From Ischnura elegans (Eukaryota; Arthropoda; Insecta; Odonata; Coenagrionidae), in the NCBI RefSeq assembly GCF_921293095.1, contig NW_025791658.1, positions 3,410,001-3,474,000 of the forward strand: a stretch of 64,000 bases of DNA, in the 5' to 3' direction. The position numbers were made by a program, and so were the translations under genes. Of this stretch, positions 23,241-63,893 are shown one piece after another (position 1 is the first letter of the stretch; every line of letters starts with the position of its first letter). The notes below the pieces were generated by a model that was not told where the DNA came from, did no database searches, and was given only the letters and a program-made list of their open reading frames with translations.

Positions 23241-23345
23241 TATTCTGTGATAAAATGTTATAACTTGAACAACCATGACCGATTTTGATCATGGGTGTAC
23301 CCTTGGTTCCCTGATAAAAAACTTATTCCTGTCTTTAAACATAAG

Positions 23346-23598
23346 GGAACTTCCAATGGCAACTGGTGAAGATGTTCCCATCATCCCAGAGGAGTGTAAA
23401 GAAGAGAGACTGTTGCAGGGATTGTTTATGGGAACATTTATGGAGTACCAAGGCCTAATTACAGATGCATGGCCCATAGACACACGGATTTTAAATCAGC
23501 GCTCCCTTCTGCACGTGGCAACCAGACTGGGGAAAGTAGATTGGGTGGAAGGACTTCTACGATTGGGTGCAGACATTTACCTCAAGGATGAGAGCAAG
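23346..23598 (+). CDS. Ankyrin-repeat gene, exon with start codon
   Basis: ATG at 23356 (context ccaATGG) opens 81 codons ending at a donor AAG|GTAACG after 23598 (phase 0). A pyrimidine-rich tract and AG just before 23346 suggest an upstream untranslated exon; a further in-frame ATG lies at 23275 if the exon is longer. The product begins MATGEDVPIIPEE and contains an ankyrin repeat: RSLLHVATRLGKVDWVEGLL then RLGADIYLKDESK. Ankyrin repeats mediate protein-protein contacts. The next exon at 26703 continues the following repeat in the same phase, which confirms the junction. Identity of the family was not recognised. Confidence 0.7.
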
Positions 23599-32499: not shown

Positions 32500-33555
32500 A
32501 TGTCTGATTTTTATAATCCAGGAACGCAGAGTCAGCTTAGGGAGGACCATCTATCTCCTGAGTCACATCCCACGTCACTTGTAGAGGGGTCTTCCCCTAC
32601 CGCCATCCATACTGACCCCACGGAGGATGCTTCAGCCTTGACAGCTCTCAAAGGATCTGTCGACAGCCTTAAAGAGGAGATTACGTCATTGAAGACACAG
32701 GTGGACGAGTTGAAGACGGCAGTCAGGGGGCACAATACCCTTTTAGAGTGCTTAGAAAGAGCTGTAACATCGTCCTCAGAGAAGTTGACATCTCTGAACG
32801 AACATGTGGAGCCTTTACTTGCATCGGGGGCCGCTGCAAATCCACCTCCCCCAATAAACAATCAGCGAAGGGAGTGCATTGAGGCCATGATGGCTAAAAC
32901 TGATATCTTTGAGGGAGACAAGGGGAAGGTTTTATCCTTCCGACGCATTTATGAATACCTCTACGACCAGGGCAATTTTACTGCCAGCCTTCTTCTGTTT
33001 CTTGCTAGAAAACCACATTTCAAAGCTATTGTAGACTGTGTTGACAGTCATATCAGTAGGATAAGGCCAGAGTTCAAACACAAATCATGGAGTAATTATG
33101 ACACTTATAATGGGCGTGAGTTGAGTACTCAAGATTGGTCATCGTTTGCTGACTTTCCAACATCAAAAGTTTACTTGGGAGGAAAGACAGATAAGAATCG
33201 TAGGGTTAAAAATGTAGCTTCAATTTTTGCTAGAACGCTGACGCAGATGGCTTTGCGTATGGCATTCAAAAACAATGGGATGCCATATGAGAGCAATGAT
33301 ATCTTCAACCAAGAAAAGTTCATGGCAGCATTTCAAGAAGCAGAGGATAAGAGAATGAGTAGCGGTAAATTAGATATAAACATTGTAGTAGCAATGACTG
33401 AGAGGGAGAGGATGATTGAATTTGCTCCAATTGTTCCATCATATGTGGCATTCAAAGGTTCGACAGCAGGAATACCTCTTCTCCGTGAACAAGTGCCGCT
33501 ACTCCTGAAGCTGTATGAAGACCATCTGATCCCAAAGTTGCTGGCTCAGGCATAG
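32500..33555 (+). CDS. Unknown coiled-coil family protein, complete copy
   Basis: A single open frame of 351 codons from ATG (tcaaatATGTC) to TAG. Residues about 1-40 are low-complexity Ser/Pro/Thr-rich. Residues about 43-110 have a heptad-like pattern (LKGSVDSLKEEITSLKTQVD...), a probable coiled coil for oligomerisation. A short proline linker (NPPPPINN) follows. Residues about 122-351 look like a compact alpha-helical domain with conserved blocks (YLYDQGNFTASLLLFLARKP, QDWSSFADFP, NIVVAMTERERMIEF, KGSTAGIPLLREQVPLLLK). No signal peptide, transmembrane helix, zinc finger or nuclease motif. The stop is immediately followed by GTAAGG in both copies. Its codons are intact, so expression or recent origin is likely. 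I do not recognise the family. The layout (coiled coil plus helical domain) is compatible with a capsid- or nucleoprotein-like origin, but that is speculation. Confidence 0.7.
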   Translation: MSDFYNPGTQSQLREDHLSPESHPTSLVEGSSPTAIHTDPTEDASALTALKGSVDSLKEEITSLKTQVDELKTAVRGHNTLLECLERAVTSSSEKLTSLNEHVEPLLASGAAANPPPPINNQRRECIEAMMAKTDIFEGDKGKVLSFRRIYEYLYDQGNFTASLLLFLARKPHFKAIVDCVDSHISRIRPEFKHKSWSNYDTYNGRELSTQDWSSFADFPTSKVYLGGKTDKNRRVKNVASIFARTLTQMALRMAFKNNGMPYESNDIFNQEKFMAAFQEAEDKRMSSGKLDINIVVAMTERERMIEFAPIVPSYVAFKGSTAGIPLLREQVPLLLKLYEDHLIPKLLAQA

Positions 33556-41994: not shown

Positions 41995-42156
41995 ATGGAA
42001 AGAATTACATTAGAATTCAGCGAAGTTAAAATAGATAAATTTTCTACCTGTAGACTTTGTATGAAGAGAGGCGAATATTATTTAAGCATTTTTGTTTCTA
42101 CTGAAGCAAGCAGTGTATCTATTGGAAAGACCATTGAGGATTTACTTAATTTAGAG
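41995..42156 (+). CDS. ZAD-domain protein, first coding exon (N-terminal half of ZAD)
   Basis: ATG (gaatcATGG) opens 54 codons ending in a strong donor GAG|GTAAGA (phase 0). The product reads ...KIDKFSTCRLCMKRGEYYLS...SIGKTIEDLLNLE. The CRLC pair of cysteines (residues 19 and 22) followed by about 30 residues and an I..LLNLE helix is the first half of a ZAD (zinc-associated domain, zf-AD). ZADs bind zinc through two CxxC pairs and dimerise; they sit at the N terminus of many insect C2H2 transcription factors. The second CxxC pair is on the exon at 55030. Location at the extreme N terminus and the phase-0 junction within the ZAD are both expected. Confidence 0.8.
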
Positions 42157-52851: not shown

Positions 52852-53240
52852 TGACATATTGATGCATAAATAGAATAATTATAACTCGAGTGTTTTGGGC
52901 ATCAGTTTTTTGAGCCTGCTTCAAATCACAATTTTTAATGACAAATTGGTTCGTATTGGGAGTGTAAAAATTTTAAAATAAGTTTAAGAATACCTAGTTA
53001 AGCATTCAAACAAAAATTAAACAAAACAATAACAATGGCGTTGCAACATTTTATGAATTTTTGATTTATTGCGGTCTCCAAGACCGAACGTCACTGGTAG
53101 TGTAACAAATATTTCACGTCACTGGTTAAGGGTTAAGAGGAAAGTACAAACCAATTTCCACTGTACTATGAGACGTGGAATAAGGATGGCTTTCGAAACT
53201 GTTGTCAGGAATTTGGTGGTCATCTTCACACGCTCTCACA
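52852..53240. other. Spacer with duplicated 60-bp block
   Basis: The block ttgcggtctccaagac...cgtcactggttaagggttaa at 53070-53135 recurs at 53895-53957. On the minus strand this is also the region downstream of the zinc-finger stop codon. Confidence 0.5.
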
Positions 53241-53412
53241 TTTAACTGATTCTTTGAGGTGATGTTTCCTAAAATGAGGCTCAAGATCCCTCACCCTTTT
53301 CATTACTTTCCCACACATCGTGCACTCCAGTCTATTCGCACCATATTGATTGTGCATGTGGCTCACGAGGTATCCCTTGATCTTGTAAGCTTTCCCGCAG
53401 AGGTCATTTTCA
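53241..53412 (-). pseudogene. C2H2 zinc-finger gene remnant (C-terminal fingers)
   Basis: The minus-strand frame encodes NDLCGKAYKIKGYLVSHMHN, the second half of a C2H2 finger, and then a complete finger ECTMCGKVMKRVRDLEPHFR-KHH with spacing C-x2-C-x12-H-x3-H. After about 10 residues comes a TGA stop at 53241-53243. The first finger has Asn where its first Cys should be, and the frame is cut upstream by an AT-MITE end at 53413. The expected function would be DNA binding. It may be the relic of an inverted paralogue related to the ZAD gene whose intron surrounds it, or a genuine terminal exon disrupted recently. Confidence 0.6.
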
Positions 53413-55029: not shown

Positions 55030-55173
55030 GTCACTGAGGATGATGGGCTGCCTGGGGCTGCTTGTCACCCATGCGTTGCGAAGCTGACGGAACTGCGCGA
55101 GTTCAAGGAGATGTGCGTGAAATCCGCAACTGAGCTGGGGAGGAAGCGCGTCCTGGATGGCGCCACTGTCACG
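55030..55173 (+). CDS. ZAD-domain protein, second coding exon (C-terminal half of ZAD)
   Basis: Acceptor tctctcaatcttaag ends at 55029. Read in phase 0 the exon gives VTEDDGLPGAACHPCVAKLT, ELREFKEMCVKSATEL and GRKRVLDGATVT. The EDDGLP...CxxC...L..F...C pattern is the second half of a ZAD and fits exactly onto the exon at 41995-42156. The donor is taken as ACG|GTTGGT (phase 0), which is weak; a read-through would meet TAG seven codons later. The second CxxC pair (CHPC) completes the zinc site with CRLC. Downstream exons are also phase 0, consistent with this end. Confidence 0.8.
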
Positions 55174-57817: not shown

Positions 57818-58432
57818 TAATATGTATATGTGGAACTGCCCCACGTGTTCCGGTGCCGTGGTTAGGCAGTCAGCTTTTGGTCGACATGTAGAACGGTTGA
57901 ACCGAAGAGTTCTCCTTTATTGTCTGAATCTGTCTGTTTCTAAAATTCTGTCTCTAAAAAAGATCGCAAACTGACAAAGAAAGCTCTCATTGATTCCAGG
58001 AAGCACTCTAAAGTAACAGAATGACTGCGTAAATAATAATATATTGTAACGTTTTAACTATCCACTTTTAACTTGACAAATAATTTTGTTACACTTTGTA
58101 AAGAAATTTTATAATTTTAAAACTCGCGAGAAAAATCAACATCAACAAGCCGCCATGACCATTACAATCCCATTTGCACTACCCGTACTGCCACTCACTG
58201 AGCCATTGCCATGAACTGCACCAGTGGGGATCTTGAGTTCTGCCGTATTCCTTTCCTTTGGTCTCTTTCCCTCTCGTAGGCACCTCCTTTTCCTCTGCGT
58301 CCTTTTCTTCTCCCTGCCGATCTTGAATTCTGCCGTATCTCCTCCCCTGGTCTCTCAATACACCACAATTTTAGCTTTTCTCTCGATCTTTTTTTTATAA
58401 CACGTCTATCTCTTCCTTCTCTCCATACACGA
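57818..58432. other. Intron sequence without recognised feature
   Basis: Pyrimidine-rich stretch at 58200-58430, no exon recognised on the plus strand. Confidence 0.35.
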
Positions 58433-58440
58433 CTCCCCAT

Positions 58441-58700
58441 CAGTGGCGGATACAGAAAAAACTCAAGGGGGGGGGCCCAACATATTTTGAGTTGTCTTTA
58501 CTTTTATTGTAGTAAGAGATGATCAAGTCACAGGCAAAGTGTATGAAAATTTTATTTAAAGTGATCATAAACATGTAAAAGACAATGCCATCTTATGATA
58601 TAAAAAGTTACAATTGTGGTTTTTCAATGTTCGGCAATACAGGCGGACCCGCAAGGGGGGGGCGCGCGCCCCCTGCGCCCCCCATCTGTATCCGCCACTG
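58441..58700. mobile_element. hAT-like MITE, 260 bp
   Basis: Inverted ends CAGTGGCGGATACAG, flanked by the perfect 8-bp duplication ctccccat (58433-58440 and 58701-58708). Contains the G-tract/C-tract blocks near the ends that recur in other G/C-tract repeats. Confidence 0.95.
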
Positions 58701-58875
58701 CTCCCCATTCAAATAATATCATGGTCGTCTCTCCCTACCATTATTGCCTCCTCACTACTATTGTTAATGTTATTTCATTTAAATAAACAACATGGCGGCT
58801 TGTTTACAATATTGTATGTTTTAGTTAAATTATGAGCATTGCAATGCATTCAAGTGAAAGTTTGGGTTATCCGCA

Positions 58876-59090
58876 TAGGCATATCTAGGGGGGGGGGGTC
58901 ACAGGGGCACGTGCCCCCCCCAGACCCTCAAAAATATGCAAGATTTTTAATACGGTCCCATTATCACTGCATTCGTTTTGTATTACGAGGTATCCTAGTG
59001 CCCCTCCCAGAACAAAATCCTGGATACGGCCTTGCTTGTGCCCTCCCCCCCCCAGAAAGAAATCCTGGATGCGCCCCTGGTTATCTGTGT
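58876..59090 (+). repeat. G/C-tract interspersed repeat family, copy 4
   Basis: gcatatctaggggggggggt...gtgcccccccc, then gatttttaatacgg, ending in two tandem ccccccagaa...atcctggat-type ends. Related to 20160-20530. Confidence 0.5.
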
Positions 59091-60200
59091 TTTCCGATCA
59101 TTCGTGTGCCTTCCCTCCCCATCATTATCCTGGATAATCGGGAGTGTACTGTATATGCATAGGTTTGTGTGGCAATGCTCATGATGACTACCAAATTCTG
59201 GTTATTATTATGTGTGAAGAGGAAAAAGAATTAGAAAAGCTGCAATTCATACATATTTACGGTATTGTGACTTCATATTTATTGAATTTTAACTTGATAT
59301 ATATTGAATTTTTACTTCATATTTATCGAATTTTTGACTTCATATTTATTGAATTTTTACTTCATATTTATCAAATTTTGACCCGTAATTCATTGAATGT
59401 TGACATATATATTTTTCTCTGGATTCTATGCATTGTTATTATGCTTGTTAATTATGACCTCAAATCTATTGCATTTTTAAGTTACTCCTGTTTTAAAATA
59501 ACCTCAAACATGAGACTGCAATTTAAGTTTATTTTCAATGGAAATGGTTCATTCTTATATGCACGACATATTACGTACGTAAAATGCCTTAAAAAATACT
59601 CGCATGAAACCTTAGGAGCAGCTGGAGTGGGAGATAATAATAATCAGGAGTGATCTGTAAATATAAATTGTGGTTGTGTAAGGGTGTCGCTCGCCGTCTC
59701 GTGCCAGCTCGGTTCCGCTCTCGGTGTAATGGAAGAATCGCAGAGTCACGTTCGAGTGATGGGTCCAGTATCTGAACCTCATAACACGTTGCAACCTCTC
59801 GCGTGGGATCCATCCTCGTGCATGACTCTGACACTTTACTCCGATTAACAACTTGCAACTGGCTCTCGCGTGGGAATTGGTCTCTGCGTATTCCTCCAAC
59901 ACTTAATGCCGTAACACGTTGCAGTATCTTGGCGTGGGAAGGCGTATGATGTGCACAATCATGCGGCCTTTTTCCGGCCAATAGGAGGACGCTGAGAGGG
60001 TCACGGGACGGACGCGACACGGGAGGAAGCCTCTTGGAGGGAATAGACTGGGAAGTCTTACGCTGTAGCTCGGAGGGGGAGTTTGTACATGTGCTAGTAA
60101 CAATTAAACGTGTGGAACCAGACTTGTCATCTCATTCTGCCCTCTACGAACCTGGCCCTTCCTATAAGCTTAGTGCTTACAGTTGTATATTTAATTTTAG
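59091..60200. other. Intron with two small tandem repeats
   Basis: 59267-59390 holds about five AT-rich units (ttcatatttattgaattttt). 59779-59940 holds three ~67-bp-spaced units (aacacgttgca...tcgcgtgggaa). The minus-strand ORF at 59589-60020 covers the second repeat and has no recognisable domain. Confidence 0.5.
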
Positions 60201-60329
60201 GAGGGTGATGTGCCAGAAACAGCCAGGGAATCTTTGACAGAAAATGAGAAATGCAGACAAGATAATTCAGAAGTGGAAGATTTCCCCATTTCAAATGCTG
60301 AAGTAGATCCTCTTTACACTGGAAATACG
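60201..60329 (+). CDS. Duplicated 129-bp exon, copy a (presumed ZAD gene)
   Basis: Acceptor atttaattttag precedes 60201 and donor ACG|GTATGT follows 60329. It is 43 codons in phase 0, acidic, with ETARESLTEN, NSEVEDF, NAEVDPLYTGNT. Copies b and c have the same length and pattern. Belonging to the ZAD gene is inferred from strand, phase and position; acidic linkers between ZAD and zinc fingers are common in that family. The most diverged copy (contains Cys and PISN instead of SIAS). Confidence 0.65.
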
Positions 60330-60449
60330 GTATGTGTGTAAAAAAAAAAACTCTATCATCACACACACTGCAAGAAATCCAGAATTTCCTATATTTTTTG
60401 TTTGCAGTTCTTTTCTAATGTAATGTTTGGTTGTATATTTAATTTTCAG

Positions 60450-60578
60450 GGGAATGAAGGGCCAGAGACAGCGAGGAAATCTTTGACAGAAGATGATGGC
60501 AGCAGAGAAGAGAATTCAGAAGTGGAAGATTTTTCTATCGCTAGTGCTGAAGTTGATCCTCTTTACACTGGCAACATG
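60450..60578 (+). CDS. Duplicated 129-bp exon, copy b
   Basis: Acceptor atatttaattttcag ends at 60449; donor ATG|GTATGT follows 60578. 43 codons, phase 0: ETARKSLTEDDGSREENSEV, EDFSIASAEVDPLYTGNM. Separated from copy a by a 120-bp intron. The intron just before it (taatgtttggttgtata) is also shared with copy c, so the duplicated unit included upstream intron DNA. Confidence 0.7.
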
Positions 60579-60749
60579 GTATGTACATGCGTACAAATCA
60601 ATCTAAAATAAAAAGCGATTTTTTATGAACATGATCTTTCCAAAAACTGCTGACAAGTCTCGGTTACGAAAATGACATGACATGGTTGCAAAAATGTTGG
60701 TAACATTTTTTGTCACGTTATATGTACCTCAATTTTCATTTTTCGACCT

Positions 60750-60905
60750 GCAGTGGCATAGCTAGGAATTTTGTTCGGGGGGGTCCAAAACCAGGGGGAA
60801 AATTTTTGAAAAACAAGATACTTAGTGGAGGGTTTTTAATTTTAACACTCTTCGTGATCAAAAAAACTTCATCTGTCGAAGTAATCTTTCTTATATTCTG
60901 ATTTT
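60750..60905 (+). mobile_element. hAT-like MITE fragment, left end
   Basis: Starts CAGTGGCATAGCTAGG followed by a G-tract. No right end found. Confidence 0.4.
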
Positions 60906-60944
60906 TCAATATTTTTTCTTTTAACCCTTTCACTGCCAGCCTAT

Positions 60945-61058
60945 TTTGTGCGGGATGTACGAAGACTACCAGGGCTATCATCCAGAATTTGTAACATTTC
61001 AGATTTAAAAATTTTTCAGCTACTTAATTTTATTTAATACATCTAGATTTTTTCCCAA
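60945..61058 (+). repeat. Fragment of the 3-kb repeat
   Basis: Matches about 8995-9110 (gggatgtacgaagact, gaatttgtaacatttcag, tagattttttcccaa). Confidence 0.65.
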
Positions 61059-61065
61059 TTCTTAA

Positions 61066-61936
61066 CCTTTTCCCCACTAAAGACGGAAATATAAGTGTGG
61101 ACGTTTCTTGACCCGGGAGATGAAAGCCGTATATTTCCGTCTAAGATTTTCCTACGCACGTGAACGAGAGCCATATATATATAAATATTTCCTAACTCTC
61201 CCCCTTTTATGACAGTCGTGGGTTTACGTTGTCTTTGTTTCAGGACCCAACGCTGCGGGGTTTAGGTTTTACCCTCGGAATCAGGGAATAAGTACCCAGA
61301 CCCCTCATCTTTTATAACCCCTCTTAGTGGTAAGGGACAGTGGTCGTACAATTGTTTATCTAGTCAGTTTTTGAAATAAATATTTGTTCATTTCACATAA
61401 AAAATAAACGAAGAATTCAATTATTTGTCTTTTGAGCAGCGTTTAAAATTTTTAAACAAAATTCTACGATAAATATCAACTTATATCTCGAGTTCTGCGT
61501 AAAAATCAACATGGAAATTGTTGCTACATTAAATACGTTAATATTGACCTTAGAACGTTTAAAGAATGTTTAAAATTTGACAATACTCAGACAAAAATGA
61601 TGATTTCAATTCTAAGTCTGCAATTTACGTGCAAGCAACAATTATTATCCATGTGCCAAATACATATAAGCAATCCATAAGTTGAGCGCAAACCAATGCC
61701 ACAGGTATGGCCGTAAACCCGGAAAGGAGGGAGCACAACTACTCTCGGAGCCTGCGATAATGCAGAGTCCTCGCTGGGAGGGGTTGAAAAAGGTTGGAAC
61801 TGAAAGTGTGTCATTATCCATGAGACCCTTCTTTACGAATAGCCTCCAAAAATGCTCCATAGCACTAGAAAGAAGAGTCTCTTGGGGCTCAGTACAGCAG
61901 TCATGCTAAGACGAAAACTCCGCCGTCTCGAAAGGG
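61066..61936 (+). mobile_element. P2, fullest copy (piggyBac-like, non-autonomous)
   Basis: Left flank TTAA at 61062-61065, right flank TTGA (mutated TTAA) at 61937-61940; weak inverted ends CCTTTTC / GAAAGGG. Homologous pieces occur at 1462-1630, 30690-31864 and 47040-47595. Contains no transposase. Lies in the intron between duplicated exons b and c. Confidence 0.6.
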
Positions 61937-62414
61937 TTGAGATATATTTATATGTTATGACCATTGATAGATTATGGGGGTTTACGTAAATTACAGCTGT
62001 TGAAGAGGGCACAATCACGAAAAGGTGAAATAATTCGGGCCGATAAATCGGCCCGTGGCAGTTTTTGCTCAACCAGCAAGGGCAGATATATCGGCCCGGT
62101 GGCAGTATAAATGTGCGTGGGTTAAATGCGCGTGTTAGTGAGCAACTCTCAAAAGAAAAAAAACGTGCACAGTATGCAATTGTAAAGTGATAAATGAGTT
62201 TTTTAATCTCTTTTTTTCACTTTTTGGCCTTGAATACGCTGCAGACCATTTCGGGTGCCAAATTCAAATCCTCGCCACCGTTCCAATTCGGCTTCAAAGT
62301 ACCGACTTTTTGCGATCAGTCCTCGATACCAGTTCCACAGGCCAGGAACCGGCAGTACCGAGAACGAAGAACCAGAACCGACCCATCACTAATATATTTT
62401 TTATGTATCTAATA

Positions 62415-63218
62415 CAGGGTGTCCCATTTATCATGACCACCCTAAATAACTTTTTGCCCAGATGCAAATTCAAGAAATTGTCGAGCAAATGTTCATTAGC
62501 CATCAGGGGGACATTAATCAGCATGATTGCCTTCCTTGTAGCTTTGTTATTTACAAAGATATGAACAGCGGTATGTCTTCTTTAAATGGCACCCTAGACG
62601 TGGACGTGGTTGTGGTCCCGGGGTCAAAGTGACTTTTGTGTTATGTTTTGACTTGCTTGTCATTTGTTTACTACTAACTCCAGTAAGTGGACGAGTTTCT
62701 TATGTTTTCATGACGTTGTGTTTATGCTAATGGTCCACTGTGCTACATTTTTGAATAAGTCCTTAGGAGAGGAAATGAATTGCCGAATAAAAAATGGCAC
62801 TCTATAGTTTTTATTCGGCAATTCAACGGACGATGGTTGACTGTTGCGCATTTTACTGTGTTTTCATTTGTTCACTGTCAACATAAGTAAGTGGAGTAGT
62901 TCCAAAACCCACGTACCTGCACTAAGCAGTAGTGAGTCAGCCATTTTTCATAACACTGTGTTTATGTTAATGGTCCACTGTGCTACATTTATGAATAATT
63001 CTTTAGGAGAGGAAATGAATTGCCGAGTAAAAACTTTAGGGTGGCATTTAAAAAAGACATACCGCTGTTAATATCTGTGTAAATAACAAAGCTACAAGGA
63101 AGGCAATCATGCTGATCAATGTCCCCCTGACGGCTAATGAACATTTGCTTGACACATTTTTGAATTTGCATCTGGACAAAAAGTTATTTCGAGTGGTCAA
63201 GATAAATGGGACACCCTG
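62415..63218. mobile_element. Long-TIR element, 804 bp (TA target)
   Basis: Flanked by TA at 62413-62414 and 63219-63220. The arms, about 175 bp each (62415-62590 and 63040-63218), begin CAGGGTGTCCCATTTATC and are near-identical inverted copies. The centre has a direct duplication of about 90 bp (62700-62790 and 62942-63033) containing tggtccactgtgctacattt. A Tc1/mariner-type MITE is likely. Confidence 0.85.
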
Positions 63219-63220
63219 TA

Positions 63221-63764
63221 TATTTATCATTTAATGATAGCAGAAAGCGAGTGCTATCGCATGATTTTTAACCATGATTCAAGAGAAAACGATAAGATCT
63301 CTCTTAATCCAACAGTCACTTAAAATGATTAGGATGGTTGGATTCCTTTTCTTTCTTATTTACTGTTAGGTATGCTCTCATATGGGACAAAATGGCCACA
63401 AGTAATGATTAACGTGAAAATTACAGCATATTTAAGGTGTATAAGAAAAAAACATAAACGTGAAACATATATTGCTGGAAATGTCATTTCACGTACGTAA
63501 TCATGGCTGCATTAATGGTCTCTAGTTGTCTCGGAACAATTCGCGGTGGTAGTTTGGCCATTTCGGGGGTGTCTCCTTGGTATGATAAGTGGAGGTTTTA
63601 TGATATAAAGAGGTTCACTATATTGAGGTTTGCCTGTAAATCTAATAAAATAAAGCAGTTTTATCATCATTACTATTATCTCAAAAGAGAATAATGGTTT
63701 TGCCTTCATTTTTTTGATGCAATTCCTATCCAATGTAATGTGTGGTTGTATTTTTAATTGGCAG
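63221..63764 (+). other. Intron before exon copy c
   Basis: No gene seen. The last 40 bases (caatgtaatgtgtggttgta...ggcag) are homologous to the intron before exon copy b. Confidence 0.5.
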
Positions 63765-63893
63765 GTGTTGGTAGAGCAAGAAACGGCCAGGGAATCTTTG
63801 GCAGAAAATGATAGGAGCAGACAAGAGAATTCAGAAGTGGAAGATTTTTCTATCGCTAGTGCAGAAGTAGATCCTCTTTACACTGGAAACATG
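63765..63893 (+). CDS. Duplicated 129-bp exon, copy c
   Basis: Acceptor tttttaattggcag ends at 63764; donor ATG|GTATGT follows 63893. 43 codons in phase 0: EQETARESLAENDRSRQENS, EVEDFSIASAEVDPLYTGNM. Closer to copy b than to copy a at the C-terminal half. Its phase allows inclusion or skipping without a frameshift. Confidence 0.7.

Follow-up and report, generated by a model that had tools for sequence, protein, structure and literature searches.

The DNA analysed here (the window) is a stretch of 64,000 nucleotides from the damselfly Ischnura elegans, corresponding to C15:3410001-3474000 in the genome that was searched (1,722,721,009 bases in 110 contigs). As listed in Table 1, it contains three segments of 129 bp, designated a, b, and c, which look like in-frame tandemly duplicated exons. 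A preliminary description of this DNA had reported them as phase-0 segments with AG on the 5′ side and GTATGT on the 3′ side, and the coordinates and peptides were found to be exact to the base. The 43-residue cassettes are indeed acidic, as had been described, with 11-12 D/E residues and 3 K/R residues in each, and the intron sequence upstream of b is shared with c. Each cassette has two aromatic residues. The amino-acid identity is 28/43 for a/b, 29/43 for a/c, and 33/43 for b/c (65-77%), and the nucleotide identity is 102/129, 104/129, and 110/129, respectively. Codon position 3 accounts for 13 of the 27 differences between a and b, 12 of the 25 between a and c, and 8 of the 19 between b and c.

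Table 1. Candidate exons and repeats of the cassette locus, in window coordinates (positions above 64,000 lie right of the window).
Feature	Position	Strand	Remarks
ZAD exon 1	41995..42156	+	ATG to donor GTAAGA, 54 codons, with CRLC; tblastn E 2.8e-9 with paralogue ZAD exon
ZAD exon 2	55030..55173	+	48 codons, with CHPC; tblastn E 3.2e-8 with paralogue exon; 3′ end (donor GTTGGT) picked by hand and uncertain
Solo LTR, 505 bp	59677..60181		Ends TGTAAG/CTTACA; GTTG target-site duplication on both sides; 19 bp before exon a
Cassette exon a	60201..60329	+	43 codons
Intron upstream of b, common to c	60385..60449	+	51/65 identical
Cassette exon b	60450..60578	+	43 codons
Repeat-filled part of the b-c intron	60750..63644		From 244-kb self-comparison; 595/3186 intron bases outside repeats
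Intron upstream of c, common to b	63700..63764	+	51/65 identical
Cassette exon c	63765..63893	+	43 codons
45-codon phase-0 exon	65331-65465		Weak donor (score 1.06); detected only by the laxer splice scan
Last exon, 594 codons	70951-72735		zf-C2H2 E 5.6e-41

Is such an arrangement common in the surroundings? A splice-site scan of both strands of 244 kb, using one threshold set that was fixed after the cassettes were already known, identified 14 phase-0 candidates that are 90-300 bp long and free of stops (8 on the + strand and 6 on the - strand), and the three cassette pairs were the only similar same-length pairs within 5 kb. A first, stricter scan had listed nothing, the cassettes included. 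Scanning 39.4 kb of the + strand gave seven candidates, four of which are the cassettes (b appearing twice), while the other three lie within a LINE, an intron repeat, and the finger exon. A Pfam 'Docking' match of cassette c (E 0.00028) was taken as chance, with no match for a and b.

It had been suggested that more copies may lie to the right. This was not borne out, as no further copy was found by tblastn in 100 kb rightward or in 30 kb leftward, nor in the genome searches. Three genome matches were obtained with a as the DNA query (E <= 0.001), and three with c as the protein query (E <= 10); in both cases these are a, b, and c themselves. Since the genome search was made in two steps, strongly diverged copies could escape it.

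The host of the cassettes seems to be a ZAD-C2H2 zinc-finger gene composed, in order, of two ZAD exons, the three cassettes, a 45-codon exon, and a finger exon with 11 intact C2H2 motifs. The host ZAD exons were located by using the ZAD exons of a paralogue as queries. When the two exons were joined by hand, zf-AD was matched with an E-value of 1.9e-15 (57.3 bits against a cut-off of 28), and the four ZAD cysteines are present as two CxxC motifs. The region of ZAD exon 2 is also matched in a whole-genome zf-AD scan (C15:3464997-3465137). The seven modelled exons are in phase 0 throughout and, with all cassettes included, encode 870 amino acids with no stop, where the joins were made from sequence and extra linker exons may have escaped. 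The nearest downstream finger ORF on the + strand is the one at 70.9 kb, and the next in the 244 kb lies 113 kb further and has its own ZAD; this is the paralogue, for which two ZAD exons and two candidate linker exons were found. In the whole genome, the 45-codon exon had itself as its sole match at E <= 1, and it resembles an exon of the paralogue (174736-174867; tblastn E 0.02, a score reached by none of 500 shuffles). The earlier idea that the host is a transcription regulator is thus likely to be right, given its ZAD and C2H2 domains, between which the cassettes form part of the linker. The 3′ end of the finger exon (72556-72753) recurs in inverted orientation, with 94% identity over 198 bp, at 53208-53405 on the - strand, inside an intron of the host gene.

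The ankyrin gene of the window was considered as the host and rejected, since its two parts, the exon 23275-23598 and the open frame 32500-33552, match consecutive regions of relatives elsewhere that consist of one exon, and the reading frame ends after 33552. These parts, both on the + strand, belong to a family with ankyrin repeats, a coiled coil, and an uncharacterised C-terminal part, which elsewhere mostly forms one open frame of 450-510 codons. Among the best 150 of 179 candidate matches of this family, 146 are on C13-C17 (hand count). A second copy lies left of the window, having an ankyrin exon with one stop at -8936 to -8613 and a second part at about -534 to 461. A structure model of the protein predicted from 32500-33549 (+) (mean pLDDT 69.8, 9 sequences) resembles the PPEP-1 or lethal-factor-type metallopeptidase fold, the best match having an E-value of 1.4e-3, with none <= 0.001; against PPEP-1, the TM score is about 0.6. 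For this predicted protein, no match to Pfam exceeded the cut-off.

The paralogue has acidic phase-0 exon candidates at 165998-166120 and 174736-174867, and the - strand has several acidic candidates (for example, 98782-98910 and 124680-124844) that are flanked by a finger ORF at 96358-97368 on one side and by a ZAD near 143 kb on the other. Since nearby genes also have acidic phase-0 candidates, such linker exons appear to be usual in this region, and the triplication would be exceptional. None of five neighbour linker-exon peptides resembled the cassettes above shuffles (P 0.18-0.87). A K-x-E motif, of the kind seen in SUMO sites, occurs near the start of several acidic linker-exon candidates of zinc-finger genes (65331-65465, 124680-124844, and 165998-166120, all right of the window), as well as in the candidates C8:43031155-43031286 and C8:43034977-43035102. 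The motif is absent from all three cassettes.

How did the array arise? Cassettes b and c have 201 bp in common at 83.6% identity, including 65 bp of the upstream intron. Two rounds of short tandem duplication may have produced the array, the unit being the exon with at least 65 bp of upstream intron. Judging the order from identity alone, a would have diverged first, leaving b and c as the younger pair. Afterwards, repeats would have stretched the b-c intron, which is now 3,186 bp against 120 bp for the a-b intron, and an LTR element would have inserted just before a. The b-c intron contains an element at 62412-63223 with 185-bp inverted ends that are 92% complementary, with relatives at other places in the 244 kb. 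The region that spans the cassettes and the finger exon is bracketed by a direct repeat (about 480 bp, 84% identical; 59156-59634 and 73212-73709, the latter right of the window), which contains a 22-bp tandem repeat.

Exon a had seemed to lack the common upstream intron because the LTR lies 19 bp before it. The homology upstream of a is limited to these 19 bp, and past the excised LTR, 13 bp more could be compared by eye (9/13 against b and 10/13 against c). Since the homology beyond the LTR covers only 13 bp, the identification of the LTR relies chiefly on its ends and its copies. Among the best 40 of 309 genome candidates, the query included, 27 start at the position corresponding to 59677 and 11 end at that corresponding to 60181, while four same-strand pairs are 6.3-6.4 kb apart, like the ends of full-length elements. 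The closest other copies in this set are 96-97% identical, an identity by which the LTR would be judged young.

Signs of selection were sought in the differences between the cassettes. The NG86 dN/dS ratio is 0.40-0.46 for the whole exons and 0.18-0.28 for the last 38 codons. Compared with shuffled substitutions, the b/c pair has fewer amino-acid changes (uncorrected P 0.021 for the whole exon, 0.0066 for codons 6-43, and 0.025 for codons 20-43). The corresponding uncorrected values are 0.148, 0.049, and 0.056 for a/b, and 0.136, 0.169, and 0.095 for a/c. Between b and c, the upstream intron has 14 changes in 65 positions and the whole exon 19 in 129, which is not a significant difference (P 0.23); with codon cuts that were set after the data had been seen, the exon has 12 changes in 114 positions for codons 6-43 (P 0.050) and 3 in 66 for codons 22-43 (P 0.004). 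These comparisons give a fair indication of selection on b and c and a weak one of selection on a.

Taken together, I consider it probable, at roughly 60%, that a, b, and c are tandemly duplicated exons that encode linker sequence of a single ZAD-C2H2 zinc-finger gene, with b and c included as repeats and a less reliably. Every exon would contribute an equal acidic, probably unfolded segment of 43 residues to the part of the protein that separates the ZAD from the fingers. In the most likely form, both b and c would be present in the message as repeats of a short segment for interaction (NSEVEDFSIASAEVDPLYTGN), extending the acidic linker, and a would be included less reliably than these two. 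Since every junction is in phase 0 and the exon lengths are multiples of three, all cassettes can be included together; the 129-bp phase-0 design allows any combination and proves none. I infer a single spliced message, the order of the duplications, and the disorder of the linker in this scheme, and the interaction or activation role is suggested by composition only.

Some competing explanations concern the working of the exons. The one that b and c alone are the working exons, the LTR having removed the branch-point region of a so that a is left out or enters only those messages that start in the LTR, is not likely but deserves real weight. The end of the LTR is only 19 bp from the acceptor of a, and a has the weakest selection signal. 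However, a retains its frame, acceptor, and donor, and the LTR terminus CTTACA could itself act as a branch site. The insertion is apparently recent, as its closest copies are 96-97% identical, and thus decay of a may not yet show. It seems unlikely, if only slightly more so, that the cassettes are used alternatively, each transcript taking one or a variable number of them, as in mutually exclusive clusters. Neighbouring homologous exons of equal phase are the usual substrate of such a choice, according to an excerpt of PMC9013439, and in 2 of 19 crude pairing tests, those of the region before b with 58200-60200 and of the region before c with 63894-65330, the score was above that of each of 30 shuffles. 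However, these two signals point to different targets and thus do not indicate a shared docking site, and the small number of shuffles preserved base composition only. In addition, the frame survives double inclusion, and introns of 120 and 3186 bp are no obvious bar to it. A further reading, in which the array is a length-adjustable ZAD-ZNF linker, is improbable as a whole. It would have the number of cassettes alter the acidic load between the ZAD and the fingers, and hence the strength or the partners of the protein, that number being set by splicing, and duplication and the LTR near a causing it to vary among individuals or species.

Other explanations question the gene itself. The surroundings are repeat-rich and a broken copy of the neighbouring ankyrin exon is close by, as might be expected if the whole host gene were a decayed copy. 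This is very unlikely in view of the 870 modelled codons with no stop, the 11 intact finger motifs, and the zf-AD score over the cut-off. It is hardly credible that the repeats belong to a transposon or are chance open frames rather than exons; while 13% of the 129-bp windows on the + strand are open and repeats abound, this explanation is largely refuted by the copy number, with three matches in 1.72 Gb, and the differences are skewed to codon position 3 and splice signals flank the segments on both sides.

Mutually exclusive clusters of the Dscam type are arrays of homologous equal-phase exons. The cassettes form such an array as well, but no common docking site for competing pairing, one known route to exclusion, was found in the 19 pairing comparisons. 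Loss of frame upon double inclusion, one possible route to exclusion, is absent here, where the exons are 129 bp long and in phase 0. Neighbouring homologous exons of equal length and phase, with the intron copied too, are also features of the tandem exon duplications treated in excerpts of PMC9013439 and PMC9741552; the present case differs from what is described there in having three copies in a probably unfolded linker, known from sequence. The host gene as modelled resembles insect ZAD-ZNF genes, having an N-terminal zf-AD, a variable linker, and a C-terminal C2H2 array, and it differs in that its linker has three tandem copies of one exon. Large lineage-specific ZAD-ZNF families are reported for holometabolous insects in a part of PMC9810180. 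In a search of open-access papers, I found none on ZAD zinc-finger genes with alternatively spliced duplicated exons, none by title on Odonata ZAD zinc fingers or chromosome 13, and none on expansion of the zinc-finger associated domain in hemimetabolous insects.

A search for ZAD (PF07776) gave at least 146 genome matches among the best 150 of 901 candidates, 134 of the 146 being on C13-C17 (hand count), which are probably chromosome 13 and its unplaced pieces. On C14, at least 10 head-to-head ZAD pairs are about 1.5-1.7 kb apart. From the sequence, there appears to be a large ZAD expansion on one small damselfly chromosome; chromosome 13 of I. elegans is given as 21.32 Mb in a passage of PMC9975421. 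The contig C15 is plausibly unlocalised scaffold 2 of this chromosome. According to an excerpt of PMC10781644, the female colour-morph locus occupies the first ~1.5 Mb of that scaffold, and one haplotype has morph-linked sequence ~3.5 Mb off on the same scaffold. The host gene is at 3.45-3.48 Mb, and the window is about 1.9 Mb past the morph locus if the coordinates compare. Since the host gene is probably on the morph-locus scaffold, a connection with morph variation would merit attention, although none is shown by the present data.

The cassette array is an exon duplication of an ordinary type, and the LTR 19 bases before a makes it slightly unusual. To the description of this locus, the present analysis adds the identity of the host gene, a closed copy number, and the LTR beside a. 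For a gene family with variable, poorly understood linkers, it provides a named host gene and a splice array open to testing. It also offers a natural experiment, in which one of three closely similar exons has an LTR at the distance of a branch point and the two LTR-free copies serve as internal controls.
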